Of a stretch of DNA of 37,714 nt, positions 2,445 to 36,394 are shown in pieces. The translations under genes were made by a program, and so were the position numbers. How positions within the stretch are numbered: position 1 is the stretch's first letter; each line of letters starts with the position of its first letter. The notes beneath the pieces are model-generated. The model was given only the letters and a program-made list of their open reading frames with translations, did no database searches and was not told the DNA's origin. Source of the DNA: Candidatus Omnitrophota bacterium (lineage in GTDB: Bacteria; Omnitrophota; Gorgyraeia; Gygaellales; Profunditerraquicolaceae); assembly GCA_016867115.1 (NCBI GenBank), contig VGKG01000011.1, positions 1 through 37,714 of the forward strand, given 5' to 3'.

Positions 2445-3961
2445 CCTGACCTTTGTTTTTTTGAAGCCGCTCTGTCCGGCAAGATCCTTCTTGAGGCAAA
2501 GTAGGCGTATCTTTTTATTGTCCTTTCTATATTCACATCAAACTTCGCGCGATTGAATAGCCTGCTGGCAATGTATAGCGCAATCGGAGGGAAAAAGGCG
2601 GGCAGATACCGGTGTGCCCGGCTTTCAAGGATCCATTTTCTCATCTTATAGGGCAGGAAATGAAAAAGATAAAAAAGCGCCATGAACCTTTTTGATTCCT
2701 TTGAGGGCTTACCCTTGCCTCTTACTATGCCGTAACCGGCCCTTCCTTCTTCGATATCCTGCATCTGGACCGGATTAAGCAGCCCCTGCTCCATGGCCCA
2801 GCAGGAGATCTGCGTCTTCGGGTAGTACCTTAGCCAGAAGATCTCGATGTGGTCGGGGAGATTGCGGCTGTAAAATTGCGCAGTCCTTTCCAGCTCAAGG
2901 CCGTCCTCTCCGGGAAGGCCGAGGATCGTATCGCAGGTGACATAAATGCCGGAGCCCTTAAGCAGCCCTATGGCCTTAGTGATTGCTTCATTTGAGGAGT
3001 TCCTTTTAAGGATACCCCTGCGCTTCTCTTCGTCGATGGTCTGGACCCCCATCTGCACTTTATAGCAGCCCGCCTCTTTTAATTGGCCGGCCAGTTCGGG
3101 CGTAACCAGGTCCGGAAAAGCAAAACAAAAAAAGGGCAGGCCGATCTCTCTTTTATACCGGGGCAGGAACTCGTCTAACCAGGCTTTGTCCGCATTGAAT
3201 ACTTCATCCCAGAAAGAGACGTATCGTGGTGCGTATTTTGCCTTTGCCTCCCCTAATTCCGCGATCACTGCTGCCGGGCTCCTCCTCCTTAAAAACTTTT
3301 TCTCTTCGGCATAAATCGCCTTCCAGGTATCGTTACAGCAATAACTGCAGCTATAGGGACAACCCCGGGAGGTAGACAAAATATAACCCTTATTGAATAC
3401 GGGGGCCGAAGTATAAAAGAGTTCTTTGTCGGCCGGCGGCAGGCGGTCGAGGTCGTCGATCGGAGGCCGGATGCGGTTTCTGACCACCGCGCCTTCTTTT
3501 TTAGTCCAGATGTTCATAATAGCATCTGTCGCCCCGGCCCCGGACAGAGCCGCGGCCAGTTCTACGATCGCCTCATCCCCCTCGCCTATGCAAAGGTAAT
3601 CAACGCAAGGCTCAAGGATGACCCTCTCCGGTACAGCACTGGGGTGGATGCCGCCGAAGACCACGGGGACAGAAAGATGTCTCTTGATTTCGGCCGCCCA
3701 GCCCTTTGCCCATTGATAATTATCCGTGATCACCGAAAAACAGACCATGTCCGGCTGATACTCAAGGATCCGGCGCAGCAGCTTTTTCCGGTAGGAGAAA
3801 ATGCCTGCCAGCACCCTGCTATTCAGGAAGGCGCTTTCGGCAAAAAGGACCGGGTCCAGGAAGAGCTTCGTCTCAAAACCGCACTTCTTAAGCAGGGCGC
3901 TTAAGTGCTCGATCCCTAAGTTTTCATACCCCGGATAAATAAAAGCGACTTTAAATTTCAT
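2441..3961 (-). CDS. B12-binding domain radical SAM protein (pair A)
   Basis: 506 residues. An N-terminal Rossmann-type B12-binding domain spans about residues 1-135 (SVITDNYQWAK, VFGGIHPSAVPE at 101-112, GEGDEAIVEL at 126-135). The radical SAM motif SRGCPYSCSYC follows, with C201, C205 and C208. There is no DxHxxG motif, as in many class B enzymes. A roughly 150-residue C-terminal region has basic and hydrophobic helices. Family members use cobalamin and SAM for methylations or ring rearrangements of poorly activated carbons (known for the family). The substrate here is unknown. It is paralogous to the protein at 24440-25918: both share GCPYxCxYC, RRRS, GLPFxCF and a later PETD/PKTQ-type loop. 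ATGA overlaps join it to the MBOAT-like gene upstream and the GT2 gene downstream. Confidence 0.9.
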   Translation of the reverse strand: MKFKVAFIYPGYENLGIEHLSALLKKCGFETKLFLDPVLFAESAFLNSRVLAGIFSYRKKLLRRILEYQPDMVCFSVITDNYQWAKGWAAEIKRHLSVPVVFGGIHPSAVPERVILEPCVDYLCIGEGDEAIVELAAALSGAGATDAIMNIWTKKEGAVVRNRIRPPIDDLDRLPPADKELFYTSAPVFNKGYILSTSRGCPYSCSYCCNDTWKAIYAEEKKFLRRRSPAAVIAELGEAKAKYAPRYVSFWDEVFNADKAWLDEFLPRYKREIGLPFFCFAFPDLVTPELAGQLKEAGCYKVQMGVQTIDEEKRRGILKRNSSNEAITKAIGLLKGSGIYVTCDTILGLPGEDGLELERTAQFYSRNLPDHIEIFWLRYYPKTQISCWAMEQGLLNPVQMQDIEEGRAGYGIVRGKGKPSKESKRFMALFYLFHFLPYKMRKWILESRAHRYLPAFFPPIALYIASRLFNRAKFDVNIERTIKRYAYFASRRILPDRAASKKQRSG

Positions 3962-5316
3962 CTGATATAGTAAAAGATAACCAGCATCGCCAGGACCTGA
4001 AAAAGCTTCACACAGACATTCCCCGAAAACCTTGAAAAAAGCGTCGGCCTTTCGCCTTCGGCGCTGACCTTCTGGTTATAAATCAATTGCAGCCCCAAAA
4101 GTATGCCCAGGATAAAGGATTTTTTCCCGATCTCAAAGATCCAGTAGCTAAAACCCCGAATGCCGACTGGATAAAGGGCCTGGAGGGCGAAGCCCGCGAA
4201 TACGCTTGCGGGCCCGCGGATGGAATTGTTCAGCATCGTACAAAACTCAAGACCGAAAGTGAGAAAAGAATAGGATGTCACTCCCAGGGTGACGGCGACC
4301 AAAACCGAAACAAAGCTGGCGAGACGGCTGTCAAGCCTCCTGAGAACGATGCTTGCCGGGACAAAGAAAACGCTGATAAGATAATCTTTAAAATAAGAAA
4401 GGGTCCGGTCAAAAAAGTCAAGGATATCGGCTGAAAGAAACGGCTTCCTGAAGGGAGAGCGGATGTCAAAACCCAAACCCCGCACCAGGCCCAGGAGTAT
4501 GTTCCCGTAACCCGTGATAGCCAGCAGATAAGAGACAAAGTGGGCCGGGATCTCTATTGCCGGTATGGACTTAAGAAGAGGATGGGTGAAATAAATACGC
4601 AGCAGTGCGGCTAAAATAAAGAGCTCGGATAGGCCGAGGGCGATCTTTCTCAGGCCCGAGCGCAGGAGATTGATAAAGTTATCCTGCGTACAGAATGAGT
4701 TCTTAAAATAATCGAACTTGGGAAGGACGATGATGTGAGGCAGGATAATAAAATATGCCGGACAGAAGATATACAAGATATAATCCCCGAACCTCTCTTT
4801 CTTCTGATAAACGAAGCTGTGGTATAAATACAGGATAAACCTGATGGAAAAAATGCCGGCAAAGATATAGGCGTACCAGAAGAATGCACTTTTGGCCGGA
4901 AAAAGGGCTTCCAGCGCAAGAAAAATAAACAATATGTAGAGGATAAAAATAAGGCTGGCCCTGAAAGATGCCGCCAATTTCGCATGGATGGCTAAATAGA
5001 AAAGGGCCGCGCCCAGATAGAGCAGGAATGATAATTTCCCGCAGATCAGAGTCGCAAATAAAAATGAGGCGCCGATAAGGATGGCCTTCCTCTCCTCCTT
5101 CCGGGGAAAGAAAAAGAGGGCCAGGAGCAGAACCAGATACAGCGAAAAGACGGCTATATATTTGGCTGTAGAAAACTGATTAAAATCCCATCCCGCAAGG
5201 GAGAAGGGCTCAAGGAACCCTTTCTCCTGAAGGCCTACAAAGATTATAAAGAGGCTCGAGAAAGCGGCGAGAATGCCGGAAAAACGGAAAAACTCCCTGT
5301 TCTTTAGGCTCTTCAT
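3958..5316 (-). CDS. MBOAT-like polytopic membrane protein lacking the usual histidine motifs
   Basis: 452 residues from the ATG at 5316, which makes an ATGA overlap with the ligase stop. An ATG at 5337 has no ribosome binding site. Numerous hydrophobic segments indicate an integral membrane protein. The C-terminal half follows the AlgI/DltB pattern: ILPHIIVLPKFDYF resembles the FP..aGPi.ry loop, SGLRKIALGLSELFI resembles the GLxKKxxIADxLA helix, and GYGNILLGLVRGLGF followed by SPFRKPFLSADILDFF matches GYSDIAIGLARLLGF..NFxxPYLSxSIxxFW. The RWHxSL segment is shortened to DRTLSYFKDY with no His. The region matching GLWHGAxWNFxLWG reads VTLGVTSYSFLTFGL (residues 342-356) with no His. MBOAT enzymes transfer acyl groups, and DltB moves D-alanine from its carrier across the membrane. 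Position directly after a carrier protein and its amino acid ligase suggests a DltB-like role (inference). The missing histidines make catalysis by the usual route doubtful. Confidence 0.7.
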   Translation of the reverse strand: MKSLKNREFFRFSGILAAFSSLFIIFVGLQEKGFLEPFSLAGWDFNQFSTAKYIAVFSLYLVLLLALFFFPRKEERKAILIGASFLFATLICGKLSFLLYLGAALFYLAIHAKLAASFRASLIFILYILFIFLALEALFPAKSAFFWYAYIFAGIFSIRFILYLYHSFVYQKKERFGDYILYIFCPAYFIILPHIIVLPKFDYFKNSFCTQDNFINLLRSGLRKIALGLSELFILAALLRIYFTHPLLKSIPAIEIPAHFVSYLLAITGYGNILLGLVRGLGFDIRSPFRKPFLSADILDFFDRTLSYFKDYLISVFFVPASIVLRRLDSRLASFVSVLVAVTLGVTSYSFLTFGLEFCTMLNNSIRGPASVFAGFALQALYPVGIRGFSYWIFEIGKKSFILGILLGLQLIYNQKVSAEGERPTLFSRFSGNVCVKLFQVLAMLVIFYYIR

Positions 5317-6263
5317 CTCCTGATTATCCCTGGCCATTTAGCGGGATTGAGGCCGTGCGTGTTCAATACTATCAAGGCCCACCTGGCGATCCCGAAGGCG
5401 ACGCATCCGCTATGGGCCCGCCCGTTATCCAGGCGCACGCCAAAACCCCGGCAAAAATGCGTGCCATGGCTGTTTAAAGAAGTAACGGGGATGAACCTTT
5501 TTAAGTCCGGGCAATAAGCCCTCAGTTCTATCTTCGTCTCAGTCAGCAGCTGAAAAAGGGATTTCCAGTCCCTGTTCTTGCCGTAAAAAACGTCGTAAGA
5601 AGGGACGAGCTCAAACTTAAGTCCGAGCTTCAGGGCAAGAGATTTCACCAGCCTGAATGATTCATCAAGCGCAGCTTTTACCTTATCTCTGCCGCCGATA
5701 AAAATCACCTCTCTCTGTTCAAACTCGTTCATCTTGAATAAAGTATTGAAAGAGGGCTCATTCCTGAAGACTTTATTTCTGACGGTTATCGCCAATAATT
5801 CCCCATTCTTCAGCCTGCGATGAGAAAGTTGCGCATAGCAGGGCAGGCACGCCGCCGGAAGCAGTACCCTTTCTGTCAAATAGCAGCTACTTTTGCCGGG
5901 CTGTTTCAGGGTGCCCCTGCCTGGCCGGGGCCCCAGGCAAGAAACGAGCTCCAGTGTATCCGGGAAGTTTTCAAGATAGCCTGCCTTTTCCAGGACCTGG
6001 CGTTCTACCGTCGAAGGATAGACCGTCTCCTGCGGGTTGAACCCGCAAAAGAGCTCTTTAAAAGCCCTATCGAGACCAGACATCAGGTCATTCACGACCC
6101 CTCTATACGCATACAGGCCCTTTCCGGTTTTTAAGATCAGGCCCTTTTCGATGGCTTCCTTCAGAGCCCCGCGGGAAAAAATGCCTTTACCCTTACTCTC
6201 ATAAAGGGGCTTCTGCGGGGAGTGGTCTGACGTATCCTTCTTTCTCCTGACAACGGCCCTCAT
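5313..6263 (-). CDS. Amino acid:[carrier protein] ligase, SerRS-like class II synthetase homologue
   Basis: 316 residues. It resembles the truncated seryl-tRNA-synthetase homologues, described from Bradyrhizobium and Agrobacterium, that lack a tRNA-binding domain. Those activate an amino acid with ATP and load it on the phosphopantetheine of a small carrier protein (established for the family). Visible motifs: YPSTVER near residue 82, a cysteine pair LPAACLPCY (C139, C142), class II motif 2 as VFRNEPS (R167, E169), NEFEQREVIFIG (E182/E185), then NSHGTHFCRGFGVR and motif 3 as SGCVAFGIARWAL (C287, R294). The Cys-Glu-Cys set fits the family's zinc site for the substrate amino group, with C139 or C142, E182 or E185, and C287 as candidates. 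The length fits a catalytic core without the tRNA-binding arm. ATGA overlaps join it to the carrier-protein gene upstream and the MBOAT-like gene downstream. The amino acid used cannot be read; family members favour small ones such as glycine or alanine. Confidence 0.85.
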   Translation of the reverse strand: MRAVVRRKKDTSDHSPQKPLYESKGKGIFSRGALKEAIEKGLILKTGKGLYAYRGVVNDLMSGLDRAFKELFCGFNPQETVYPSTVERQVLEKAGYLENFPDTLELVSCLGPRPGRGTLKQPGKSSCYLTERVLLPAACLPCYAQLSHRRLKNGELLAITVRNKVFRNEPSFNTLFKMNEFEQREVIFIGGRDKVKAALDESFRLVKSLALKLGLKFELVPSYDVFYGKNRDWKSLFQLLTETKIELRAYCPDLKRFIPVTSLNSHGTHFCRGFGVRLDNGRAHSGCVAFGIARWALIVLNTHGLNPAKWPGIIRR

Positions 6264-6532
6264 CTTTTAGCCCCTCCTCTCCTGAGCATCTTTCTGGCTA
6301 TAAAATCCGAAAGCGTGCTGACATCGGAAAAGTCTTCGATATGTATATCCAGCGGTTTCAGGGTGATCTTGAACTCAGACTCGATGAAAATGATCAGTTG
6401 CACAAAGTTCAGCGAATCGATTATCTCTTCATCTATAAGGCGTATGCTATCGGAAACCTTGCGTTTCCCGGATAACCCGGCAAGGAAACTCTTCAGCTTC
6501 TCTTTAATTAAATCGGGCTCTGCCGTATTCAT
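6260..6532 (-). CDS. Acyl/aminoacyl carrier protein
   Basis: 90 residues with the size and four-helix pattern of an ACP. The phosphopantetheine site is IIDSLNFVQL, with Ser40 in a canonical DSL motif. It is followed by a helix (IIFIESEFKITL) and a final ...VSTLSDFIARKML helix. A phosphopantetheinyl transferase would have to modify it, and none is seen in the window. It sits directly before the amino acid:carrier-protein ligase with an ATGA overlap, so it is very likely that ligase's partner (family knowledge plus context). In that role it would carry an aminoacyl thioester, as DltC does. It differs from the second carrier protein at 19977-20291. Confidence 0.9.
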   Translation of the reverse strand: MNTAEPDLIKEKLKSFLAGLSGKRKVSDSIRLIDEEIIDSLNFVQLIIFIESEFKITLKPLDIHIEDFSDVSTLSDFIARKMLRRGGAKR

Positions 6533-12658: not shown

Positions 12659-13846
12659 TTAGACCACATCGTTATCTCCGAACGTAATAAACCAGTCCCT
12701 AAACCGCAGGACATCTTCTTCCGGTATCTCCGGAGAGTGGTTGCGTAAAACAAAATTATAAGGTTGGGGCCTGAACCTTTCCGGACAGATAAAAAAACCG
12801 TTTTTGAGCAAAACCCCTGAGTAGGCCCTGTCGGGCGAGACGAGAAAGCCGGCGATATCCGCGCCATTTTTCCTGAAGTGCGCCAAGGCTCCTTTTATAA
12901 GCAGGGATAGCGCAAGCCTCCCGGCGCAGCTCTTTTCCGCCAGCAGATCCACGATATAACCCGCTTTAAGCGTATCGAAAGATGCGATCCTTAATACCGT
13001 ATAGCCGACGATCTTTTTCCCGCTATCTTCCGCCGCCAAAATAACGTAGCTGCGCCGGGGGTTTTTTATGTAGCGCCAATTCAGGTAGGCGCTGTCGCGT
13101 ACGATGATATTTTTGTGGCATGATTGCGCCCTCTGCCATAAATCGTCAAATCTGCGGTCAAACTCTCTGACTATGCGTACGTTAATCCTCCCCGAGTCAC
13201 CCTTGCCTGAGTTATTGAACTTGTGCAGAAAGAAATCGTAAACCCCCAGAAAGGATAGTGCCGGAAGACCCAAGAAGAACATAAAAAGATTGTCTTTTGC
13301 GCATCTCCTCAATAAGTTCTTTGCGCTTAAAGGTTTGATCCAGAGGCCGGGGCTGCCTATATATCTGTAGCCTAATTGCGCCAGAGATTCTTTTGAGATG
13401 ACGGAATTCGGGAATCCGTAGGTCAAGACGATATTTTTCTGCCTGCATGCCGCAAACGCCTTTCCTGCCAGGTACGGATAAATACCCTTCTCCCTGAAAT
13501 CCCGGTGCGTGAGCACTTTGATAGCCAGGCTTCCCTCGCGCACCATTGCCCCAAGCTTCATCCTTACGGGATTGATCACGTATTGACCGACGATCCTGCG
13601 ATTGTGCCGGGCTACCCATATAATCGCTCTTCCCGCAGGGTTATCCGAATACTCCCAACGCAGATACTCGGGATAAGCCTCATCTACTTCGCCGTAATGC
13701 ATGCGCACCAGATCAAGCAGGCCCCGGATGCCCTCCTCATCGGTAAGGTCAAAAGGTTCTGCCTCCCAATCGTAGGCCTTCCTGATCTTCTCCCAGAAAG
13801 CCGGGTCTTCTAAAGAATAATCGGGGCGTGCTTGCGGATTTGGCAT
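12659..13846 (-). CDS. GNAT-family N-acyltransferase
   Basis: 395 residues, long for a GNAT, probably with two acyltransferase-like halves. The first half has WVARHNRRIVGQYVINPVRM and SLAIKVLTHRDFREKGIYPYLAGKAF, which matches GNAT motif A with acetyl-CoA contact R-E-K-G-I-Y-P. The second has IVGYTVLRI, AGYIVDLLAEKSC and LALSLLIKGALAHF, again GNAT-like, with GVLLKNGFF near the end. Two-half architectures occur in FemX/GNAT-type enzymes that acylate sugars or peptides. The donor could be an acyl-CoA or a loaded carrier protein from this locus (speculative). It sits 3 nt from the SPASM gene upstream and 15 nt from the B12 radical SAM gene downstream. Confidence 0.75.
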   Translation of the reverse strand: MPNPQARPDYSLEDPAFWEKIRKAYDWEAEPFDLTDEEGIRGLLDLVRMHYGEVDEAYPEYLRWEYSDNPAGRAIIWVARHNRRIVGQYVINPVRMKLGAMVREGSLAIKVLTHRDFREKGIYPYLAGKAFAACRQKNIVLTYGFPNSVISKESLAQLGYRYIGSPGLWIKPLSAKNLLRRCAKDNLFMFFLGLPALSFLGVYDFFLHKFNNSGKGDSGRINVRIVREFDRRFDDLWQRAQSCHKNIIVRDSAYLNWRYIKNPRRSYVILAAEDSGKKIVGYTVLRIASFDTLKAGYIVDLLAEKSCAGRLALSLLIKGALAHFRKNGADIAGFLVSPDRAYSGVLLKNGFFICPERFRPQPYNFVLRNHSPEIPEEDVLRFRDWFITFGDNDVV

Positions 13847-15886: not shown

Positions 15887-17371
15887 CTAATTCTTTGAAA
15901 AAGTTGACGATTGGGCACCCCCTGATGGCCTATTGCTGCGGCAGGCATTATTCTTTCCGATGGGTCTACTGCTGTAAAAAAGCCTCTTAAAAAACAATAC
16001 GCAGTAAAACCAGAGGTATTTCCGCATTCCCGGTTTAGATAAGAAGCGTACGATTCTTACGGGATTAAGATAGAAGATAAGCAGGCACTTTTCGCGAAAA
16101 CCGAAGAACTCATCGTCGCTTATTTCGCTTAAATTAAACCCGAGATTATTAAAAGTGGTCCCTTCGAAATTAAAATCCGCCTGTTTCCTGTCCCATCCGG
16201 CCATCTCGAAGATCTCGGTATTGGGAAAGGGGTTTACGGCATAGAAACCGGCGGTATCCAGCTTAGACCTGCGGGCAAAATCAAGGGTCTTATCCATCTC
16301 CTCCCTGGTCTCGCCGGGAAATCCGAGCATAAAAAATCCGTGCGTATGTATACCCAGGCCAGAAGTTTTATTGATTACCTGTGCGATCTTTTCAAGGTCC
16401 AGGTTTTTCTTGGTCAGTTTCTGCAGCCGGCCTGATGCGGTCTCGACCGCATAAGCGATAGAAAAAGTCCCGGCGCGCTTGAGTCTCATTAATAGGTCTT
16501 CATCCAGGATATCACCCCTCAAACCGTTCGGAAAAGAGAGCCTGATCTTCATCCCGGAGCCGATGATCAAGTCGCAGATCCTTGCCGCTCTTTCCCTGTC
16601 CAGATTAAAACAGTCGTCTAAGACCTCGTATTCGCGGATATTGAAGTCGCGATACAGCGATTCGATCTCCCTTAGGACGTTTTCCGCTGAGCGCGGCCGG
16701 AAAGCTTTGCCCATGATCCTGTGGCAGTAAATACACTGGTAGGGGCAGCCGCGGGAAGTGGCGATCGTCATGTATGGGGAGCCGTTTCTGGGCTTTAGGG
16801 ATACCCCGGTGCGTTTATAATACTTTTCCAGAGGCAATAGCTCCCAGGCGGGAAAAGGGAGCGCATCAAGTTCCTTGATGTATTCGCGGGGAGGGGTACT
16901 TACTGCCGAATCGCCCTTTCTATAGGCTATCCCCTTTATCCGCTGAAAGTCCTGCCCCCCCGAAATAATCGCTTCTGTCAATTCCAAAAAGGTAAGCTCT
17001 CCCTCTCCGAAGACCAAAAAATCTATGTTTGCATCCTTCAATACATCCTGCGGGCAGGCATTAGCGTGCGGCCCGCCCGCGACGACCCTACAGCTGACTT
17101 TTTGCTCTTTGATCGCAGCCGTTACTTCGTGCAAAACGCCCGCCTCTGTGCTAAGGCTGCTTATCCCGGCTATTTCCGGATCAAAATCAATGCATTCGCG
17201 CATTATGTCTTCGGGTTTCAGGAAATAAAGCCCCATATCAACAATCTTTATTTGGTGGGCCGTCTTCTGCCGCAGTAAAGAGGCGATATACATAAGGCCT
17301 AATGGCGGAGAAATAGAGTAGGGGAAAGGGTAATTCTTAGGAGCTGTTTTTATCAGTAGGATCCTGGCCAT
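15887..17371 (-). CDS. B12-binding domain radical SAM protein (pair C)
   Basis: 494 residues. The B12-binding domain (about 1-135) has PPLGLMYIASLL, KIVDMGLYF, IAGISSLSTEAGV, VAGGPHANACP (97-107) and FGEGELTF. The radical SAM domain has ATSRGCPYQCIYC with C209, C213 and C216, then GKAFRPRS and FPNGLRGDILDEDLL. The C-terminal helical tail carries FYLNPVRIVRFL. It is a close paralogue of the divergently transcribed gene at 18545-19975: both have GKAFR(P/A)RS, FPNGLR(G/A)D, GFFMLGFP and the same SFNLS/FNLSG region. The last about 20 residues (SNRPSGGAQSSTF) are low complexity and may not be conserved. It lies 4 nt after the SDR gene and 14 nt before the SPASM pair. Substrate unknown. Confidence 0.9.
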   Translation of the reverse strand: MARILLIKTAPKNYPFPYSISPPLGLMYIASLLRQKTAHQIKIVDMGLYFLKPEDIMRECIDFDPEIAGISSLSTEAGVLHEVTAAIKEQKVSCRVVAGGPHANACPQDVLKDANIDFLVFGEGELTFLELTEAIISGGQDFQRIKGIAYRKGDSAVSTPPREYIKELDALPFPAWELLPLEKYYKRTGVSLKPRNGSPYMTIATSRGCPYQCIYCHRIMGKAFRPRSAENVLREIESLYRDFNIREYEVLDDCFNLDRERAARICDLIIGSGMKIRLSFPNGLRGDILDEDLLMRLKRAGTFSIAYAVETASGRLQKLTKKNLDLEKIAQVINKTSGLGIHTHGFFMLGFPGETREEMDKTLDFARRSKLDTAGFYAVNPFPNTEIFEMAGWDRKQADFNFEGTTFNNLGFNLSEISDDEFFGFREKCLLIFYLNPVRIVRFLSKPGMRKYLWFYCVLFFKRLFYSSRPIGKNNACRSNRPSGGAQSSTFSKN

Positions 17372-17375
17372 CTGG

Positions 17376-18383
17376 CTATAACAGGTTATTTTCTTGATAC
17401 CACCGGACAGTAGAACGTATTCCTTTTTTCAGGTCAAATGCGGGCGCAAAACAAAGCTCTCTTCCGGCTTTTTCCGCCAAAATATCCCAGTCATTGTACA
17501 TCAGGCGGATAGTATCCTTATTGCAAAGGATGCGGAAAGGATATACCCTGAAGCGGCAGGCTTTTTCCATGAGCTCCTTAAGGGAAATAGCGGTATTGAC
17601 CATGCCTAAGGGCAAGCGCACCGGAAAAACTTTCACTCCCAGTTCCTCGCCTATGGTTTTGATAAACTCCCTGAAGGCATAAGGGCGGCCGGTAATGTGA
17701 TATATCTGGCCGACCCGCCCCTGGCGTTCCGCTAAAAGCGCTCCGCGTAAAAGATCGTCAATAAAACAGAACGGCATAAGATTGGAGCCGTCCCGGATAG
17801 TGACAGCAAGGCCTTTTTTTGCCAGGCGAAAGAGAGGCAGCATCGCCATATTCCCGCGGCCGTAGACCAGGCCCGGACGGATGATGATTGCGGGAAAACC
17901 CCTGGCTTTAACCATCCCCAGGATATACTGCTCTGCTTCGAACTTGCTTCTTCCGTAATCGGTTACAGGCTGGCAGGGGCTCTCTTCGGTAATCCCCCTG
18001 CCCAGGCCCACGGCCTCTACGCTGCTGAAGTAGACGAAAAGCCGGACTTTATTCCGGGCGCAGGCCTCTGCAAGGAGCTTTGTCCCTTCGACATTCACTT
18101 GCCTGTATTTTTTCGAGACAGAATCAAAACCATCTATTGATTTATCCGGCCGGATCCAGGCAGCCAGGTGATAGACAACGTCAATGCCCCGGGAGGCCTC
18201 ATCCAGCGCAGCTGCGTCCGAAAGGTCCACAACCACAAACTCTGCCTCCGGATAGCCGGGCAGTCCGTTTTTTTGGCGGGGGGCAATAAGGCATCTGACC
18301 TCTGCGCCTTCTGCCGCAAGACGGCTGACCAGCTGGCTTCCGATAAACCCCGTGGCACCCGTAACCAGGTATTTTCGTGCCAT
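17376..18383 (-). CDS. NAD-dependent epimerase/dehydratase (extended SDR)
   Basis: 335 residues from the ATG at 18383, which has AAGGA 8 nt upstream. The frame extends to a GTG at 18443, but the extra residues precede the Rossmann strand and look non-coding. The N-terminus reads YLVTGATGFIGSQL with the GxxGxxG (G9, G12, G15), then VVVDLSDAAAL and VVYHLAAW. The catalytic SDR residues are Ser in FVYFSSVEAVG and YGRSKFEAEQ (Y143, K147). Later IIRPGLVYGRGN and YHITGRPYAFREF fit NAD-dependent sugar epimerases or 3-beta-HSD-like SDRs. The substrate could be a nucleotide sugar or an isoprenoid/steroid-type alcohol. It is the first gene of the long minus-strand operon, facing the divergent promoter region. 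Confidence 0.88.
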   Translation of the reverse strand: MARKYLVTGATGFIGSQLVSRLAAEGAEVRCLIAPRQKNGLPGYPEAEFVVVDLSDAAALDEASRGIDVVYHLAAWIRPDKSIDGFDSVSKKYRQVNVEGTKLLAEACARNKVRLFVYFSSVEAVGLGRGITEESPCQPVTDYGRSKFEAEQYILGMVKARGFPAIIIRPGLVYGRGNMAMLPLFRLAKKGLAVTIRDGSNLMPFCFIDDLLRGALLAERQGRVGQIYHITGRPYAFREFIKTIGEELGVKVFPVRLPLGMVNTAISLKELMEKACRFRVYPFRILCNKDTIRLMYNDWDILAEKAGRELCFAPAFDLKKGIRSTVRWYQENNLL

Positions 18384-18421
18384 TTTGTGCTTCCTTAAGG
18401 TTTTATTAAGCGCTAAAGTTA

Positions 18422-18450
18422 TTGAAAGGCAAGGGGAAAACACGTATAAT
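18422..18450 (+). promoter_or_regulatory. Sigma-70-type promoter (TTGAAA - 17 nt - TATAAT)
   Basis: The -35 hexamer TTGAAA is at 18422-18427 and the -10 hexamer TATAAT at 18445-18450, with a 17 nt spacer. The -10 is a perfect match and the -35 matches five of six positions. Transcription would start near 18457 and leave a leader of about 88 nt before the ATG at 18545, which has AGGA 6 nt upstream. It would drive the plus-strand operon. Confidence 0.7.
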
Positions 18451-18544: not shown

Positions 18545-19975
18545 ATGAAGATCCTTCTGGTAAAGCCGCTTGGCCATGACCCCTTAAATAACGCCGTCAC
18601 CCATCCTCTCGGATTGATGTATCTGGCTGCTTATCTGCGCCGGAGGAGGCCGGGAAGGGATACGATCAGGCTTCTGGATATGCGCCTCTATGCGCGGAAA
18701 AGAGCGCTGGAAGAACTTAGCGCCCTGTTATCCGGTTTCAGGCCGGATATAGTGGGAATAAGCGGCCTTACCACTGAACACAAGAATATTTTCCGGGTCG
18801 CAAATCTGGCAAAGGAACTTCATAAAGGTTCTCTGGTGATCGCCGGCGGGCCTCACAGCACCTCTTACCCGCAGCAGACAATGGAATGCCGCGATATAGA
18901 CTACGCTGTCCAGCAGGAGGGCGAAGAGACTTTTTTCGAGCTGATAGAAACCCTCGAAAAGGGTCTTGACCCCGCGGGCATACCGGGCCTGAGCCTGAGA
19001 AAAGGCGACGCCGTCAGAGTAAATCAAAGTAGGGGATTTATCGAAGATGTCGACTCTCTCCCCTTTCCTGCCTGGGACCTGATAGAAGTAGGAAAATATT
19101 CTACGCGCAAACGCCAGAGCCCGTTACGTATCGGCCCTTATATGAGCATCTATACCTCCCGGGGCTGCCCTTTTGGCTGCGTATATTGCCATAATATATT
19201 CGGCAAGGCCTTCCGCGCGCGCAGCGTCGATAATATACTGGCGGAGATGCAGGAGCTCATCGACAGATATTCTCTGGATGAGTTTGATATAGTCGATGAC
19301 ATCTTCAATTTTGACCGGGAAAGGGCATCTCATTTTTTTGAGGAGATCATAAAAAGGCGGATGAAGGTCAGGATCCTTTTCCCCAACGGCCTCAGGGCAG
19401 ACCTTCTCGACGAAGAAGTGATCGCCCTGATGAAGGAGGCCGGTGTGGTCATGGCGGCCATAGCTATCGAATCGGCATCCCCGCGTATACAGAAGCTGAT
19501 GAACAAAAATATAAATCTGGATAAGACCGAGGGGATGATTAAAGCGCTGGCAAAACAGGGCATCGCCACTTCGGGCTTCTTTATGCTGGGATTCCCGACA
19601 GAAAAAAAAGAGGAGTTAAAGTTGACTTTGGATTTCGCCCTGAGGTCTCACCTTGCGATGGGCGTTTTCTTCATGGTCATACCCTTTGCCGGTACGCAGC
19701 TTGGGGAGGGGATAAAGAATAAATCGGCGGGACTTGCCCCCGTCCGTCAATTTGACTACTTTTCTTCCACGTTCAATTTAAGCGGGGTCGGCAGATTCTA
19801 CCTTTTCTGGTTTCATAAAATAGCGTGGTTAAGGTTTTACCTCGGCCGCCGGCGCATGGGCTATTTCTTGAAACATATCAACGCGAAAAACTTCATTCTG
19901 GCGATGAATCTCTTTCTGAAATGGATAGAGGCCTTATGGGCCGGGACATATAGACTAATAAGATGCAACCCTTAA
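18545..19975 (+). CDS. B12-binding domain radical SAM protein (pair C)
   Basis: 476 residues from the ATG at 18545, which has AGGA 6 nt upstream. An upstream ATG at 18422 lies in the promoter and is not used. The B12-binding domain has HPLGLMYLAAYL, IRLLDMRLYA, IVGISGLTTEHK, AGGPHSTSYP (110-119) and QQEGEETFFEL. Radical SAM cysteines are C208, C212 and C215 in YTSRGCPFGCVYC, followed by GKAFRARS and LFPNGLRADLLDEEVI. It is a close paralogue of 15887-17371, across the divergent promoter. It is first in the plus-strand operon, 1 nt before the second carrier protein. That position suggests it acts on a carrier-bound or lipid substrate (inference), but the substrate is unknown. Confidence 0.9.
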   Translation: MKILLVKPLGHDPLNNAVTHPLGLMYLAAYLRRRRPGRDTIRLLDMRLYARKRALEELSALLSGFRPDIVGISGLTTEHKNIFRVANLAKELHKGSLVIAGGPHSTSYPQQTMECRDIDYAVQQEGEETFFELIETLEKGLDPAGIPGLSLRKGDAVRVNQSRGFIEDVDSLPFPAWDLIEVGKYSTRKRQSPLRIGPYMSIYTSRGCPFGCVYCHNIFGKAFRARSVDNILAEMQELIDRYSLDEFDIVDDIFNFDRERASHFFEEIIKRRMKVRILFPNGLRADLLDEEVIALMKEAGVVMAAIAIESASPRIQKLMNKNINLDKTEGMIKALAKQGIATSGFFMLGFPTEKKEELKLTLDFALRSHLAMGVFFMVIPFAGTQLGEGIKNKSAGLAPVRQFDYFSSTFNLSGVGRFYLFWFHKIAWLRFYLGRRRMGYFLKHINAKNFILAMNLFLKWIEALWAGTYRLIRCNP

Positions 19976-19976
19976 A

Positions 19977-20291
19977 ATGACGGATAACTTCGGCCGGAAG
20001 AAAATAAAAGACCTGGTCATCGGGGCGCTAAAGGACAACCTTAGGAATAAAAAGCCCGATATACGGATCGATGACCTTACGCCGTTGTTCGGGGCAAAAT
20101 CATACCTGGATTCCATGGGGATCATGGGCCTGATCGTCGATATCGAAACGCGGCTGAACGACGAGGGCATCGATATAACGCTGATCTCGGAAAAATCCTT
20201 ATCTGACGCAAAGAGCCCGTTCAAGAACGTTTCCACCCTGGTAGACTTTATTGCCGGTTCCCTGGAAAAGAAAAAAGCTTCGGGTTCCTAA
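19977..20291 (+). CDS. Acyl carrier protein-like protein
   Basis: 104 residues. The core reads KSYLDSMGIMGLIVDIETRL, with Ser46 in a DSM motif as the probable phosphopantetheine attachment site. A final ...VSTLVDFIAGSLEKK helix is as expected for an ACP. It is slightly longer than a housekeeping ACP and has a loop (TLISEKSLSDAKSPFKN). It sits between a B12 radical SAM gene (1 nt gap) and a KAS III gene (13 nt gap). Carrier proteins next to KAS III usually carry an acyl or ketide group, which differs from the aminoacyl role proposed for the carrier protein at 6260-6532. Confidence 0.8.
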   Translation: MTDNFGRKKIKDLVIGALKDNLRNKKPDIRIDDLTPLFGAKSYLDSMGIMGLIVDIETRLNDEGIDITLISEKSLSDAKSPFKNVSTLVDFIAGSLEKKKASGS

Positions 20292-20304
20292 GCGGCCTTA
20301 AAAT

Positions 20305-21363
20305 ATGCCTAATTTCGCCTTCCATAACGTCGGCATCTCCGGAGTCTCGGCGGCAGTTCCGAAAAAGCGCATAAAGAATGCCTCCCTTTCGCGGATCTTT
20401 AAAAAGGCTGCGGTCGAAAAAATAATCTCTGTCACCGGCATAGAAGAAAGGCGGTCTGCCGGAAAGAATACCTGCTCCTCCGACCTCTGCTTTGCGGCAG
20501 CCGAAAGATTGATCCTTGAGGCGGGGATAGAAAAAGATGCTATCGACGTCCTTATTTTCGTCAGCCAAACTCCGGATTACCGCCAGCCGTCAACTGCGGC
20601 GATACTGCAGGATCGCCTGGGTTTAAAAAAGGGCACGGCAAGTCTTGATATGAACCTTGCCTGCTCAGGTTACGTATACGGCCTGTCTGCGGCATTCTCC
20701 TACGCCAGCAATCTAAAGGAAAACGCGAAGGTCCTGTTGCTGGCAGGCGAGACATTTTCAAAGATCGTCTCGTCTAAAGACAAGGCGACCGCTCTATTAT
20801 TCGGCGATGCGGGCTCAGCCACCCTGGTAGAAAGAGGGGATTTCGGGAAATCTTACTTCTCGCTCAATTCGGACGGGAGCGGAGAAAACATCATCAAGAT
20901 CGATTCCGGAGGCTACAGGCGGATGAGCCGGCACAGGAGCCTGATGCCGCGAAAACGCCCTAACGGCAGCGTGCGCTCTGACGAACAGCTGTTTATGGAC
21001 GGGGCAGAGGTCTTTAACTTTACGCTGCGCGAGATCCCCCGGGACATTCTTTCTCTCCTGCGCTACGCAAATGTGCCTGGAGGAAAAATAGATTATTTTA
21101 TCCTGCACCAGGCAAATAAATTGATACTTGAGTTGCTGGCAAAAAAAATAGGCTGCCCTGCGGCGAAACTTCCCCTCTCGCTTAAGAAGTTCGGGAATAC
21201 GGGTTCAGCTTCCATACCATTGACCCTCGTTTCGGAACTGAAAGACACACTCGGCCGCAAAAAAAAGAAAGTGCTCCTCTCCGGTTTCGGCGGGGGCTTA
21301 TCGTGGGCCTCTTGCGTAACAGACATCGGAAGATGCCCTGTTTGCTGCGTCATCGAGGTATAA
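20305..21363 (+). CDS. 3-oxoacyl-ACP synthase III (KAS III) family protein
   Basis: 352 residues. The catalytic triad is complete: Cys120 in NLACSGYVYGL, His268 in FILHQANKLI and Asn298 in KFGNTGSASIPL. FVSQTPDYRQPSTAA, LLFGDAGSATLV and LSGFGGGLSWAS are typical of FabH-like enzymes. Such enzymes start chain building by condensing acyl-CoA with malonyl-ACP, or transfer acyl groups as specialised starters or esters (family knowledge). Here it follows a dedicated carrier protein rather than fatty acid genes, so a role in making a specialised acyl group for the glycolipid is an inference. The C-terminal extension beyond WAS (CVTDIGRCPVCC) has four cysteines, which is unusual and may be non-functional. 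The next gene starts 3 nt later. Confidence 0.9.
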   Translation: MPNFAFHNVGISGVSAAVPKKRIKNASLSRIFKKAAVEKIISVTGIEERRSAGKNTCSSDLCFAAAERLILEAGIEKDAIDVLIFVSQTPDYRQPSTAAILQDRLGLKKGTASLDMNLACSGYVYGLSAAFSYASNLKENAKVLLLAGETFSKIVSSKDKATALLFGDAGSATLVERGDFGKSYFSLNSDGSGENIIKIDSGGYRRMSRHRSLMPRKRPNGSVRSDEQLFMDGAEVFNFTLREIPRDILSLLRYANVPGGKIDYFILHQANKLILELLAKKIGCPAAKLPLSLKKFGNTGSASIPLTLVSELKDTLGRKKKKVLLSGFGGGLSWASCVTDIGRCPVCCVIEV

Positions 21364-21366: not shown

Positions 21367-22983
21367 ATGCCCGGACCCCGATTGAACCCTGAAATAATAC
21401 CTTCCAAGGGCGGGCTAATCCTGCCTTTTTTTTGCGCCCTCATCCTTTCTGCTTTAACCGCGCCTCTGGCTATATGGGGGCCTGACCAGGCCGTTATCTA
21501 CAGCCAGGCATATTATGCGCTAAAATATTTCCGCCTCCCTCTGCATGGCACTGTCTCTTCTTTCGGTACACTCTTTCCCCCGGCGATGATCTGGTTTGCG
21601 CTGCCCTACGTGGCGATTTTCAGGGACCTGGTCCTTCTGTCATTTGCGCTGATGATGACGCACTCGATAATCCTGATCCTGTGCCTGGATGTTGCTTTAA
21701 GCCGGATCGAGGCCGCAAGACTTACGCGCGGCGCGGCATATATCGCCGCAGCCCTGTATCTGGTCCTGGATATGTCGCTAATCTTTACCGCAGCAAACCT
21801 CTGGGAACAGTATGTCGCGCGGACTCTCGTTGTGGCGCTCTGGACCGTTATTCTTGCCTCTATATATTCTCCCCGGCCTGCCTATTTTCTGATCAGCGGG
21901 TTCCTGGCGGTCTTTCTTATCGGCATACACCCTATCCCGGCAATATTAATACCTGCGTCCGCCGCAATTATTGCTATTCTGGCCTTTAAAAAAGGGGTCG
22001 GCCGCTCTTGCCTGACTTTCTTTATCCTGGGGGCACTCTTAAGCTTCCTTATAGTCTGGCTGCCCTGGATAGCCGCGGGCAACCTGAAAAAAACTGTTTT
22101 TCTCCTGCAGGAAAATATATCGATCGCTAAGCGGCCTTTTCTGTGGCTCGCAAATATATTCCTTGCTTTCGGGGAATGGATAAGGCTGCTGCTCTCTCCT
22201 TCAGCGGGTACGGTCCTGCACCTGCCTGATCCGCCTAATTACCTGGTCCAGAGCGGCCTCACGATCCTCTTAAGCCGGCTTCTCTCGTATGTGCGCGCGC
22301 TCTTCGGCTTATTGACACTGGGGTGGTGCCTTTTTAACTTCAGGAAGAACCGCGCTGCCGGATACGCGATCGGCTCGCTTTACGGCCTCTGTTACCTGGC
22401 CTTTTTCATGCTGCTTATGATAGGGATCATGCCGTTCAGCGAAAGGCCGGATTACGGCAGCCAGTTCCTTGGATTGTATAATTTTGCCGCTGCCATCGGG
22501 ATATATTTTATTATCCGGGGCCCCGCAGACACAAGGATCAAGCGGATAATGCGCGTTGTTACGGTGGCAGGTTCTCTTTGTATAATCTTCTCAACGCTTA
22601 TTCTGGCCTTGTCAGTCAATTACGATGTCAGGCATCCGAAAAAATATGCCTTTGCGCTCATCCCGGCTTCGGAAAGAATGGAGATCGTGAGAATATTGGT
22701 AAAAAATAGCGGGAATAAACAAAAGATTTACGCGTATAAACTTGACCTCTCTTTGCCCTCGGCCCTGCCGGATCAGCCAAAATGGCTCACCGAATCAGAG
22801 CGGCTTTATGAGCCGGCCTTGCTCTTTGAGGTCCTGCTTCTGCGTTACGGCAAGGCCTTCCGCCGTGCGGGGTCAGATGAAGAGCCGGATTTTCTTATTC
22901 TTGGTCCGCCGGAAAAGGGCGGGAAAGAAAAGTACGAATTGATCTATGAGGGGGCCTACCTTAGCGTAGAGAAAAAAATCTAA
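21367..22983 (+). CDS. GT-C-like polytopic membrane protein
   Basis: 538 residues, dominated by hydrophobic segments. The N-terminal loop after the first membrane helix has IWGPDQAVIYSQAYY, with an Asp in the place GT-C enzymes use for catalysis. HGTVSSFGTLFPPAMIWFALPY follows, like the GHPPLY-type loop. A soluble C-terminal part of about 100 residues (from about HPKKYAFALIPASERMEIV) ends the protein. The GT-C-like assignment is by layout, not by a strong signature, so the activity is inferred. It is the last gene of the plus-strand operon. Its stop (22981-22983) overlaps the stop of the convergent gene by 3 nt, with no terminator between. Confidence 0.65.
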   Translation: MPGPRLNPEIIPSKGGLILPFFCALILSALTAPLAIWGPDQAVIYSQAYYALKYFRLPLHGTVSSFGTLFPPAMIWFALPYVAIFRDLVLLSFALMMTHSIILILCLDVALSRIEAARLTRGAAYIAAALYLVLDMSLIFTAANLWEQYVARTLVVALWTVILASIYSPRPAYFLISGFLAVFLIGIHPIPAILIPASAAIIAILAFKKGVGRSCLTFFILGALLSFLIVWLPWIAAGNLKKTVFLLQENISIAKRPFLWLANIFLAFGEWIRLLLSPSAGTVLHLPDPPNYLVQSGLTILLSRLLSYVRALFGLLTLGWCLFNFRKNRAAGYAIGSLYGLCYLAFFMLLMIGIMPFSERPDYGSQFLGLYNFAAAIGIYFIIRGPADTRIKRIMRVVTVAGSLCIIFSTLILALSVNYDVRHPKKYAFALIPASERMEIVRILVKNSGNKQKIYAYKLDLSLPSALPDQPKWLTESERLYEPALLFEVLLLRYGKAFRRAGSDEEPDFLILGPPEKGGKEKYELIYEGAYLSVEKKI

Positions 22984-32792: not shown

Positions 32793-33728
32793 TTATTTTC
32801 CCGCGCCTCTATCAGGCTGCCTCAGCAGCAGGCAATAATCCAGCATTACTTCAGATTTTTTCCCGGTTGCAAATGTCAAAACGCACGGGCCTTTTTCCAG
32901 ATAAAACGACGGGCTTTCTACCAGCGCCCATTCTTTTGTTGCTTTTAACTCTAAGGGGAGCTTCTGCTTTTTATGGTTATTTTCAATTCCCATCTCAATA
33001 CGGTTACCGGCCGGAGAAAACGCCGAGAGCAGACTGCGGTAATAACCGGAAACGGGGATCTCGGTCCTGACAATATGTACAGCCCCCTTTGCGCGGGCCC
33101 GGATAAGGCCGGTGGCGTAAGCCGGATGATAAGAGACCTCCTGCCAGTCTCCCTCGCCGTTTTGCGGTTCGATGAACAGAGACGAAAAGGCTTCTTCCCC
33201 TGAATCAAGCACCGGCATAAGAAAGACCTCGGAAATAGCCACCTCTCCTTCCGGCGGTATCCTGCTTTCCTCCCAGGGCGTATCCCTTGCGCCTATCCAG
33301 AACTTTAAGGCAAGCATGCCTTCCGGAAGCACCCAGTAAGGATTCTCCGAAACAGAGACCATGAACCAGCGGCCCGGATACCCTTTATTCAAATACCAGA
33401 TATTCTCTATCAGGTGGCTTCCTTTATGCGCCTTGTTCTTGGCATCAAGTGCCTCTACAAAGATCTCGGGAAAGGCCTTCCGGTTACGCCAGTTATGATG
33501 CACATAGACAAAGAGCTGGTATTTGCCCGGCTGCGGCACGCTGATTTTGAACTCGCATGTCTTAGAGGCATCGCCGGTAAAGACAGCTCCCCTCGCAGTA
33601 AGGGTGCCCTTTTCCCAGCCTCTTGCCTCTTTCGCCGTAACCGCAAGGGAAGCCCAGGCGCAGGCGGGGAGTAATGTAAGCCCGGCAATAAAGGCAAGGG
33701 AGCGGGAGATTCCTTTATCTATTCTCAT
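32793..33728 (-). CDS. Secreted protein of unknown function, probable beta-sandwich
   Basis: 311 residues from the ATG at 33728, preferred over 33758 because it gives a clean signal peptide. MRIDKGISRSLAFIAGLTLLPACAWA has the pattern n-region Arg/Lys, hydrophobic core, and a likely cleavage after AWA; a LPAC lipobox is less likely. The mature part is rich in alternating hydrophobic stretches (CEFKISVPQPGKYQLFVYVHH, GEVAISEVFLMPVL) that suggest a beta-sandwich of the carbohydrate-binding type. No catalytic motif is recognised. It starts inside the 3' end of the DUF362 gene (14 nt overlap) and precedes the GT39 gene. A glycan-binding or surface-assembly role is an inference from context. Confidence 0.7.
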   Translation of the reverse strand: MRIDKGISRSLAFIAGLTLLPACAWASLAVTAKEARGWEKGTLTARGAVFTGDASKTCEFKISVPQPGKYQLFVYVHHNWRNRKAFPEIFVEALDAKNKAHKGSHLIENIWYLNKGYPGRWFMVSVSENPYWVLPEGMLALKFWIGARDTPWEESRIPPEGEVAISEVFLMPVLDSGEEAFSSLFIEPQNGEGDWQEVSYHPAYATGLIRARAKGAVHIVRTEIPVSGYYRSLLSAFSPAGNRIEMGIENNHKKQKLPLELKATKEWALVESPSFYLEKGPCVLTFATGKKSEVMLDYCLLLRQPDRGAGK

Positions 33729-34890
33729 CGGAAGGCAGCTCCGGATAGACGCCGTCATCAGATTTTTCCCAGTTCATGCTCAGGTCCTCCGGCACTTCTC
33801 CTTTGACACTGATCCGTGAACTATCTATATTTCCCAAACCCTGCCTGTAGGCCATACGCAGGTGATGCACATACCAGGGCGTGCCCAGATCGGGGTCTTC
33901 CGGCGCAGGCTGCCAATTCTTGGTTATCAGGCGCGTGGCAGTAGCATCCGTCGCCACAGGGTCTTTTCCGGCGATCACAATGAATCCTCCGGCGCGGCTG
34001 GTTACATCCACGGGTTTTCCGCCCAGATAAAGCGAAGCTCCCCTGCCCTCCATGCCGAAACTGCCGTCTACCACCACCAGGTCCGGCTTTAAGGCCTTAT
34101 TGATGTCCACGATCACCTGATGCAGGCCCGCCTCATGAAGCTTATGCCGGGGTTCGCCGTAAAAAATCGAAGGCATGATCCCCATAAAGTTTTTCATACC
34201 CAGGCTTACGGGCGAAGGTTTATGATGCGTCTTTAGCGAAGGTATGGAGATGATCACATCCGCCTCGGCGACTATATTCGGAATGGCTAAAAAGCGCAGC
34301 TTTGTCTTTGAGGGGACCAGTTTAAAATGCGTAGTATAATCCATAAGATTGATCAGGTAGACTCTCTGCCCGTACTTCTTATTCAGTAAATCCACCAGGC
34401 GCCTGACCTGAGCCCCCTCTTTGCCCTCCCTGCCGGCGAAGTTTATCTTAAGCGGGCGCTCTGCCCACTCTCCGATAATCACCTCTTTTGCTCCGGCCCT
34501 GAGGCATTCTTCGGCTACCGCAGCTACCACCAGCGGATGGGAGATCTCGCCGCTAGTTACCGGATCATGCCCATCCAGGCCTCCGGTAATATAATTGGGC
34601 TTGATAAAGACTCTTTCTTTTGGCCTGACAATGCTCTTCATCCCCCCGATCAAATCGATGGCGTCCCTGGTCAGCGCATAAAGGTCCTTTCCTCTGACTA
34701 AAGAAACTTCGGAGGCCACCGCCTTGTTCTCAGCCCGGCCCTCTGCCGCTACCCCGGTCTTCTTTTCCAGGGCAAGCGATACCGAGCTAAACTTCTCGGC
34801 ATAAACCCCGGACTCAGCCGACAGGCGGGATGACTTAAAAAGAAACAGGCATGCGAATAGGATCTTGAATATTTTTTTAACTCTGTACAT
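33715..34890 (-). CDS. Secreted DUF362-domain protein
   Basis: 391 residues with a Sec-type signal peptide, MYRVKKIFKILFACLFLFKSSRLSA, and no lipobox. The DUF362 domain (about 70-330) contains FIKPNYITG, GEISHPLVVAAVAEECLRAGA, IISIPSLKTHHKPSPVSLGMKNFMGIMP, the highly typical (L/I)PxxKTHxxxxxTGxxKNxxG-like block, and DLVVVDGSFGMEG. Ferredoxin-type cysteines, present in many DUF362 proteins, are absent. The biochemical role of the family is not well established. Export in a glycan locus is notable. The ATG at 34890 lies 23 nt after the TPR gene stop. Confidence 0.85.
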   Translation of the reverse strand: MYRVKKIFKILFACLFLFKSSRLSAESGVYAEKFSSVSLALEKKTGVAAEGRAENKAVASEVSLVRGKDLYALTRDAIDLIGGMKSIVRPKERVFIKPNYITGGLDGHDPVTSGEISHPLVVAAVAEECLRAGAKEVIIGEWAERPLKINFAGREGKEGAQVRRLVDLLNKKYGQRVYLINLMDYTTHFKLVPSKTKLRFLAIPNIVAEADVIISIPSLKTHHKPSPVSLGMKNFMGIMPSIFYGEPRHKLHEAGLHQVIVDINKALKPDLVVVDGSFGMEGRGASLYLGGKPVDVTSRAGGFIVIAGKDPVATDATATRLITKNWQPAPEDPDLGTPWYVHHLRMAYRQGLGNIDSSRISVKGEVPEDLSMNWEKSDDGVYPELPSDENR

Positions 34891-34913
34891 AACCGGCCTT
34901 GCGGGAGCTGCCC

Positions 34914-35522
34914 TTATTTCTTAAGCAGAAAATCCACGATCATGTTCGTCTTCAGGTCTATCTCTGATTTATTGAAAAGCACTTTTGCCTTAAGAAAATC
35001 CTCTTTTGCCGGGCCTTCTTCTCCTGCTGCGTCTGCTACGATACCCAAAAGCAGATACGCTTCAGGGCTGTCGGGCCTTAACTCAAGCGCCTTGCCGAAA
35101 GCCTCTTTTGCCTCTTCATATTGAGAAAGATAATACTTCACCACTCCCAGCGCCAGATACAGCTCGGGGTTATCGGGGGCGATCTCGGACATCTCCCGGA
35201 TAGAAGAAAGCGCCTGACTGTACTCCTTGTTCTTAAAGGACTCAAGCGCATCCAGTCGTAACGACTCCAGGTCTTTATCTCCGGCAGCCGCTTGAGGCTC
35301 TTCTTCTTTTGCGGCGGAAGAATCTTCTATCTTAGAGATCTCATCGAGAAGATAATATCTGGTGAGCCCGTTCACATTTATCTCCACCATAGTTTCGTCT
35401 TTATTAATTATCCTGCCCTCCACTCTGTCCCCGTTTTCCAGAATGAGGACTTCGCAAAAGGCCGGCTGCAGGCACCCCAGCAAAAAGACAGGGATCAAAA
35501 ACAGGCCGATGGATATCTTCAT
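34914..35522 (-). CDS. Exported TPR protein, possible lipoprotein
   Basis: 202 residues from the ATG at 35522, which has AAGGAG 6 nt upstream. An ATG at 35543 lacks this. The signal peptide is short (MKISIGLFLIPVFLLGCLQPAFC) with a possible LLGC lipobox at residues 14-17. A small beta domain follows (VLILENGDRVEGRIINKDETMVEI), of the SH3/Sm-like type often seen in such proteins. TPR repeats begin at about residue 90: SFKNKEYSQALSSIREM, PELYLALGVVKYYLSQYEEAKEAF, PEAYLLLGIVADAAG. It probably scaffolds protein contacts at the membrane. The position at the start of the secreted module (TPR, DUF362, beta-sandwich) supports a role in export or assembly (inference). Confidence 0.85.
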   Translation of the reverse strand: MKISIGLFLIPVFLLGCLQPAFCEVLILENGDRVEGRIINKDETMVEINVNGLTRYYLLDEISKIEDSSAAKEEEPQAAAGDKDLESLRLDALESFKNKEYSQALSSIREMSEIAPDNPELYLALGVVKYYLSQYEEAKEAFGKALELRPDSPEAYLLLGIVADAAGEEGPAKEDFLKAKVLFNKSEIDLKTNMIVDFLLKK

Positions 35523-35536
35523 CTTCCGCTCCTTTC

Positions 35537-36394
35537 CTAGCATAGTTTTCCTAAGTCCGGTTTATGGGCGAATGTCCCGTTTGCCGCCAGATACAAAAAT
35601 CTGGGAAGGTCATAAACCACATATAACGGCTTTTTTATCAAAGCCATATTTTTCTTTTCGTTTTTCCGGATCATCAGGCGCCGGTTGCGCCAGCAAAGAT
35701 AGCGCCTTGCTTTTTTTTGCGTGGCCGAACTATTGCCGGAATGTACACACCTGGCTTCGGGCGCGTAGAGCGCCTGATAGCCTTTTCTCCTGGCCCTCCA
35801 GGAGACATCCACATCCTCTACCAGGAAGAAAAACCTCTCGTCGAAATAACCGGTTTCTTCCCTTAGGTCTGCAAGCATCTTACGCCGGTAAAGCGCAGCG
35901 CAGGAGCAGGCGCCGAATACCGGCCTTCTCATGTCAAATCTGCCGTTATCAGAGGCATTGCGGCCGATATCATGGAACCTCCTCAATGCGGAAAGCCGTA
36001 TCCCCGTTGAGTAGATCCTCTTTTTATCGGGCAGCAAAACCTTCGGCTGGACCATCCCTATCCGGCCTGGGAGGCCTTCTATTATTTCCGCGGCCCGGGA
36101 GAGAAAATCATTCTCCAGCACTACATCGCAGTCAAGGGCGAGGACCCATTCTCCGCAGGAAGCCTCGATCCCCTGATTTCTCGCTTTACAGGCACCGAGA
36201 TTATGCCGGTTCTCGATAAGGGCAAAATGCGGGTAACCTTTCCTGATCAGCTCTGCGGTGCCGTCTTTCGAGCCGTTATCAACAATGATCACTTCAAAAC
36301 CCTGCCAATCCTGTGCCAAGAGGGCATCAAGGCAGGGCCGGATAAAGACCCTGGCATTGAAGCAGGGGATGACTACCGAGATCTTAGGCGTCAT
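35537..36394 (-). CDS. Glycosyltransferase family 2 (rhamnosyltransferase-like)
   Basis: 285 residues. VVIPCFNARVF, VIIVDNGSKDGT (V38-D39), NLGACKARNQGI and WVLALDCDVVLE (D88-D90) are the GT2 nucleotide-sugar and metal-binding motifs. VEDVDVSWRARRKGYQALYAPEARCVH is the acceptor-region signature of WbbL/rhamnosyltransferase-like enzymes. It probably adds a sugar to a lipid-linked glycan at the cytoplasmic membrane face (inference). It overlaps GT4 by 4 nt (36391-36394). Its stop lies 14 nt upstream of the TPR gene. Confidence 0.9.
   Translation of the reverse strand: MTPKISVVIPCFNARVFIRPCLDALLAQDWQGFEVIIVDNGSKDGTAELIRKGYPHFALIENRHNLGACKARNQGIEASCGEWVLALDCDVVLENDFLSRAAEIIEGLPGRIGMVQPKVLLPDKKRIYSTGIRLSALRRFHDIGRNASDNGRFDMRRPVFGACSCAALYRRKMLADLREETGYFDERFFFLVEDVDVSWRARRKGYQALYAPEARCVHSGNSSATQKKARRYLCWRNRRLMIRKNEKKNMALIKKPLYVVYDLPRFLYLAANGTFAHKPDLGKLC

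Follow-up and report, generated by a model that had tools for sequence, protein, structure and literature searches.

The occurrence of a β-ketoacyl-ACP synthase III (KAS III) and a small carrier protein within a glycoconjugate cluster of a Candidatus Omnitrophota bacterium raises the question of what such a pair supplies there, and whether the radical SAM protein encoded directly upstream works on the same substrate. The stretch of DNA analysed, here termed the window, is 37.7 kb long (37,714 nucleotides), and 28 of its called genes lie on the minus strand. Only four lie on the plus strand, encoding in order a B12-binding radical SAM protein of class B-type architecture (18545-19975; 476 aa), a predicted acyl carrier protein of the glycan-locus type (19977-20291; 104 aa), a KAS III of the glycan-locus type (20305-21363; 352 aa) and a polytopic membrane protein that by eye resembles transferases of the GT-C type (21367-22983; 538 aa). 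The TAA stop of the radical SAM gene ends at 19975 and the ATG of the carrier gene lies at 19977, leaving a gap of 1 nt, and a further 13 nt separate the end of the carrier gene at 20291 from the KAS III ATG at 20305. The tight packing of these three genes, as given in a preliminary description of the locus, thus holds in both position and strand. All three genes are real, but the operon of three proposed there left out the membrane protein gene, which follows the KAS III gene by 3 nt on the same strand and therefore makes the unit a four-gene operon. A promoter-like site on the plus strand (18422-18450; TTGAAA, 17 nt, TATAAT; 11 of 12) lies in the divergent intergenic region that precedes the operon; it is a consensus match only, though it ranks first among 12 such sites (shuffle mean 4.2). 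A terminator-like stem (21406-21428, plus strand), nine pairs long and accompanied by a T run, is situated 43 nt past the KAS III stop, inside the start of the fourth gene. Such sites are no commoner than in shuffled sequences, and the stem is possibly an attenuator.

Two foreign origins of the operon were considered and rejected. The GC content of its four genes (0.49-0.52) equals that of the window (0.50), which does not fit recent foreign DNA. A phage origin is likewise rejected, as the carrier has no phage match and the phage matches of the KAS III, at 34-35% among the matches listed, are at the ordinary FabH level and so count against it.

The KAS III is itself well supported as a member of its enzyme family. 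It exceeds the curated cut-offs of the thiolase-fold domain families PF08541 and PF08545 (with 56.8 bits against 24 for ACP_syn_III and 84.2 bits against 26.6 for ACP_syn_III_C, in no order of accession) as well as that of NCBIfam PRK09352 (251.9 bits against 249), and the catalytic triad reported as intact in the preliminary description is present as Cys120, His268 and Asn298. Could it then be an alternative FabH, giving the cell a second enzyme to start ordinary fatty acids or a special membrane lipid? Its standing as a bona fide KAS III above the PRK09352 cut-off would suit this role, but it misses the TIGR00747 fabH cut-off (226 against 292 bits). The genome's own FabH, to which it is 33% identical, is encoded on another contig within a fatty-acid cluster that also holds plsX, fabD, fabG, fabF and ACP genes. 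In the window, the other proteins scanned have no match to a fatty-acid synthesis (FAS) family, which agrees with the earlier remark that no other fatty acid genes are nearby. A KAS III scan of the genome contigs returned a single weak, irrelevant match. In a tree of 44 KAS III sequences, comprising 29 FabHs from FAS clusters and 15 non-FAS rows including the window copy, all 29 FabHs fall on one side of a branch with 100/100 support and the window KAS III falls outside it. It belongs instead to a group of nine (support 100/99) with sequences from Parabacteroides capsule plasmids, from Azospirillum loci that carry SDR, GNAT, PseG or NeuB genes, and PDB 4efi; because branches are long, its exact sister is uncertain. 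The missed fabH cut-off, the lack of FAS neighbours and the position outside the FAS branch together establish the window enzyme as a second KAS III of the genome and not the housekeeping FabH.

The residues at which the enzyme would meet its partners agree with this separation. In E. coli FabH, W32, R36, K214 and R249 are established contacts of CoA or ACP, and an ACP docking study by Zhang in 2001 is cited in PMC8036411. All four are kept in 29 of the 29 FAS-cluster FabHs, while the window KAS III has K, V, N and L at these positions and the other 14 non-FAS rows (14/14) likewise lack all four; the catalytic residues (C112, H244 and N274 in E. coli numbering) are kept across all 44 rows. The FAS KAS III of A. 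baumannii, however, has A and N at R36 and R249 (PMC8036411), so a FAS enzyme may lack these arginines and loss of the four residues is by itself no proof of a glycan role. Despite this exception, the placement outside all FAS-cluster FabHs, together with a dedicated, non-AcpP carrier, makes an alternative FabH an improbable reading. At the position of the acyl-pocket residue Phe87 of E. coli FabH, the window enzyme carries Gln94 (codon 20584-20586). This glutamine, unique among the 44 sequences, may hint at a starter that is polar or unusual.

The carrier protein (19977-20291) has no Pfam match and falls short of the PP-binding family. Its AlphaFold model (pLDDT 82) places helices at residues 7-22, 46-62, 72-76 and 85-102, a four-helix arrangement in which Ser46 opens helix II. 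The top PDB fold matches of this model are carrier proteins (Foldseek probability up to 1.00), and as none has E < 0.001 these matches serve as support and not as proof. Asp45 and Ser46 are the sole invariant columns among 13 aligned relatives, in which a C-terminal SPF..V..L motif is frequent. With its modelled four-helix fold and an Asp-Ser pair at the N-terminus of helix II, the protein is thus assigned as a probable acyl carrier protein, and Ser46 (codon 20112-20114) is its predicted phosphopantetheine site. Relatives occur in 12 other genomes among 384 of the phylum, and also on Rhizobium plasmids. In glycan loci, the family adjoins FkbH, an SDR with an AMP ligase, or a KAS III; a search of 98 close relatives matched in the window alone. 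The same genome encodes a canonical ACP within the FAS cluster and holds further PP-binding matches, one of which is an aminoacyl carrier (6260-6532), so the carrier of the operon is a dedicated extra one.

Pairing of the two proteins is a recurrent feature of the phylum. Each of the five non-FAS KAS III loci found there has a carrier gene within about 2.5 kb (5/5), some of the small carriers being identified by visual inspection of their D-S motif and length and not by a family model. Besides the window, these are L063 (NeuB-KAS III-ACP), L066 (ACP-KAS III), L067 (NeuB-MT-ACP-KAS III-SDR) and L068 (rSAM-KAS III-SDR-MT-ACP). The closest in arrangement is L066 of genome G223, from the same class, where a carrier of the same family directly precedes the KAS III in the order of the window at a distance of 15 nt, at a locus with a glycosyltransferase-like gene and α/β hydrolases. 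Unlike the window, this locus has no radical SAM gene adjacent, its carrier and KAS III are only 26% and 33% identical to those of the window, and its KAS III belongs to another subclade.

The radical SAM gene shows no such constancy. Its product matches PF04055 (85 bits) and PF02310 (69 bits) far over both cut-offs and carries a CxxxCxxC motif at residues 208-215, and it is on this sequence evidence predicted to be a B12-dependent class B radical SAM enzyme. No NCBIfam subfamily is reached, the best scoring 161 bits against a cut-off of 575, and none of the characterised methyltransferase subfamilies is assigned. One may suppose that the three genes act on one substrate, with the B12 enzyme C-methylating or otherwise modifying the carrier-bound acyl group to give a branched acyl for the glycolipid. 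The 1-nt gap to the carrier gene and the promoter-like site upstream suggest coupled expression in keeping with this idea, and two further B12 radical SAM genes adjoin a KAS III or this carrier family, in L068 and in L020 (rSAM-ACP-FkbH). Both of these, however, fall in other clades than the window protein in a radical SAM tree with several weakly supported forks, and the KAS III of L068 is missing in 26 further genomes of that genus. Against the same idea, none of the 12 best relatives of the window protein examined has a KAS III or carrier match adjoining (0/12), their loci holding glycosyltransferases, GT-C-like proteins or unrelated genes. Apart from itself, the protein that it matches best in the 384 genomes is a paralogue in the window (15887-17371, minus strand; 41-42% identity), which lies outside the operon across the divergent promoter. 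The window holds at least six B12 radical SAM genes, such that one adjoining a carrier is not surprising and chance adjacency is likely. The full trio in this arrangement was found in no other genome, searching the carrier in 98 close relatives and 384 phylum genomes, and the KAS III and the radical SAM protein in 384 each. With relatives that lack both partners, and with L068 and L020 in other clades, the trio is a local operon and not a conserved unit; conserved co-occurrence, proposed earlier as a check on all three genes, is borne out for the carrier and KAS III but not for the radical SAM gene. On the same grounds, C-methylation of the carrier-bound acyl, as the preliminary description had suggested, is left with operon position as its only basis; it is possible but unsupported, and action of the three on one substrate is accordingly regarded as unlikely.

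The reading preferred here is that carrier and KAS III probably form a dedicated, FAS-independent starter module, as found in O-antigen, capsule, flagellin-glycan and nonulosonate loci, whose acyl product goes to a surface sugar. By analogy with those systems, the pair likely supplies a surface glycan or glycolipid with a short β-keto or β-hydroxy acyl group. The single AcpS-type (ACPS-family) gene in the genome, at G000:C2, would provide the enzyme that converts Ser46 to the holo form, and the KAS III would load a short acyl starter on Cys120. With His268 and Asn298, it would then condense this starter with malonyl on the dedicated carrier to yield a β-ketoacyl-carrier, for example acetoacetyl, a step suggested by the decarboxylating triad, which is intact. 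This product may be reduced by a ketoreductase encoded elsewhere, such as the housekeeping FabG, and some transferase would attach the acyl group, through a sugar amino or hydroxyl, to the surface glycoconjugate that the cluster builds. The co-transcribed radical SAM and membrane proteins would most likely have the glycan or lipid scaffold, and not the carrier, as their target.

The window genes do not supply every one of these steps. None of them is recognised as a KR-type reductase, an AMP ligase, a sugar aminotransferase or a dedicated N-acyltransferase, which leaves the visible pathway incomplete. The divergent neighbour of the operon (17376-18443, minus strand; PF01370/PF01073) is an extended SDR of the HpnA/3β-HSD-like type and not a KR-type ketoreductase. 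The lack of an acyltransferase would be accounted for if the KAS III were itself an acyltransferase of the CerJ/ChlB3 type, passing a carrier-bound acyl directly to a sugar with no condensation, and KAS III-fold acyltransferases that act on sugars are indeed known, with CerJ as the precedent (PMC9573744). The triad of CerJ and ChlB3 is Cys-His-Asp, with the Asp five residues past the His (PMC9573744). The window enzyme has Leu273 at this position and retains the KAS-type Asn298. The triad Asp of CerJ being absent, direct transfer is disfavoured and appears quite doubtful.

The dedicated starter module would not be the only carrier-based system in the window. A separate aminoacyl module of three minus-strand genes (3958-6532) comprises the aminoacyl carrier protein at 6260-6532, with weak DltC/AsbD matches, an amino acid:[carrier protein] ligase-like protein (5313-6263; PDB 3mey/4h2s, E 5e-26) and a DltB-like membrane protein (3958-5337), whose match to NCBIfam DltB (E 1.8e-5, residues 54-347) is below cut-off and whose single-sequence structure prediction is too poor to use (pLDDT 48). 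This module resembles a Dlt system in which a class-II synthetase-type ligase replaces DltA, and it could aminoacylate an exported glycolipid. Since the non-FAS KAS III is dedicated and has a carrier of its own within a glycoconjugate cluster, the pair is best read as an acyl supply line, and the earlier proposal of a second carrier-based supply line beside the aminoacyl module is retained. A combined scheme, in which the B12 enzyme modifies the carrier-bound acyl, for example by C-methylation, and its product and the Dlt-like module decorate one exported glycolipid, is very unlikely.

How these modules relate to the rest of the cluster is best judged from G061, a genome of another family in the same order. 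Its contig C1 (20000-76000; L124-L126) carries about 18 of the window genes in related order at 39% identity or more. The shared portion includes the divergent junction, with a 47% homologue of the SDR, and a 42% homologue of the fourth operon gene, for which the domain-family scans gave no family match. This cluster lacks the carrier, the KAS III, the aminoacyl carrier and the aminoacyl ligase, the only KAS III match of G061 lying on another contig. The two carrier-based modules are therefore optional components of the cluster; their joint gain or loss was observed only once and could be a coincidence. A GNAT-domain protein of the window (12659-13846) is also shared with the G061 cluster, and because it and the membrane protein at 21367 occur there without the acyl module, neither can be named as a dedicated acyltransferase. 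Other genomes of the order mostly share the cluster end near 32793-37485, as in variable glycan loci. A DUF362 protein in this end (33715-34890, minus strand) keeps 67-78% identity in nine genomes from this order, amid nearby genes that vary, and is a conserved marker of one end of a variable glycoconjugate locus.

Together, these comparisons extend the dedicated carrier and KAS III module for acyl decoration to a phylum of small-genome lineages, where a glycoconjugate cluster that is shared in other respects may or may not contain it. Its acyl group, if identified, would account for part of an uncharacterised surface glycolipid. Additionally, the W32/R36/K214/R249 signature could help to separate glycan-type KAS IIIs from FabH, which naming by sequence now merges, with the A. 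baumannii case making it insufficient alone for annotation.

The pairing of a carrier with a KAS III is itself already known from other bacteria. The closest KAS III found, at 43%, is that of a Parabacteroides distasonis capsule cassette (NZ_OY725812.1), where carrier proteins likewise adjoin the KAS III within a polysaccharide locus; this cassette has an AMP ligase and an SDR that are absent in the window, and is without the radical SAM gene. In Flavobacterium psychrophilum, wfpC-wfpG encode an ACP, two KAS enzymes and a reductase assigned to the 3,5-dihydroxyhexanoyl group of the O-antigen (PMC6519341). The window resembles this set in combining a carrier protein and a 3-ketoacyl synthase in a polysaccharide locus, but has one KAS in place of two and neither the reductase nor the PglD-type acyltransferase. 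In flagellin islands of Aeromonas, an ACP occurs with a reductase and an AMP ligase (PMC7874193). In Pseudomonas syringae, the viosamine island (vioS, a KAS III; vioR, a reductase; acp; vioB) leads to N-(3-hydroxybutyryl)-viosamine, and its vioR and vioM were tested by mutants and mass spectrometry (PMC3927599). A relative on plasmid pBGF3 of Burkholderia glumae lies beside flagellar genes in the order vioA-KAS III-ACP-KAS III-SDR-acetyltransferase, the second KAS III reading with a frame break. Both share with the window a KAS III and a dedicated small carrier in a glycan locus apart from fatty-acid genes. Unlike the viosamine island, the window has no recognised VioR ketoreductase, VioB acyltransferase or VioA aminotransferase, its operon includes a B12 radical SAM gene and a membrane protein gene, and its KAS III and the B. 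glumae copy that was compared fall in different subclades. With a non-FAS KAS III directly beside its own carrier in a glycan locus, the window nonetheless joins the systems typified by VioS-Acp and WfpC-D.
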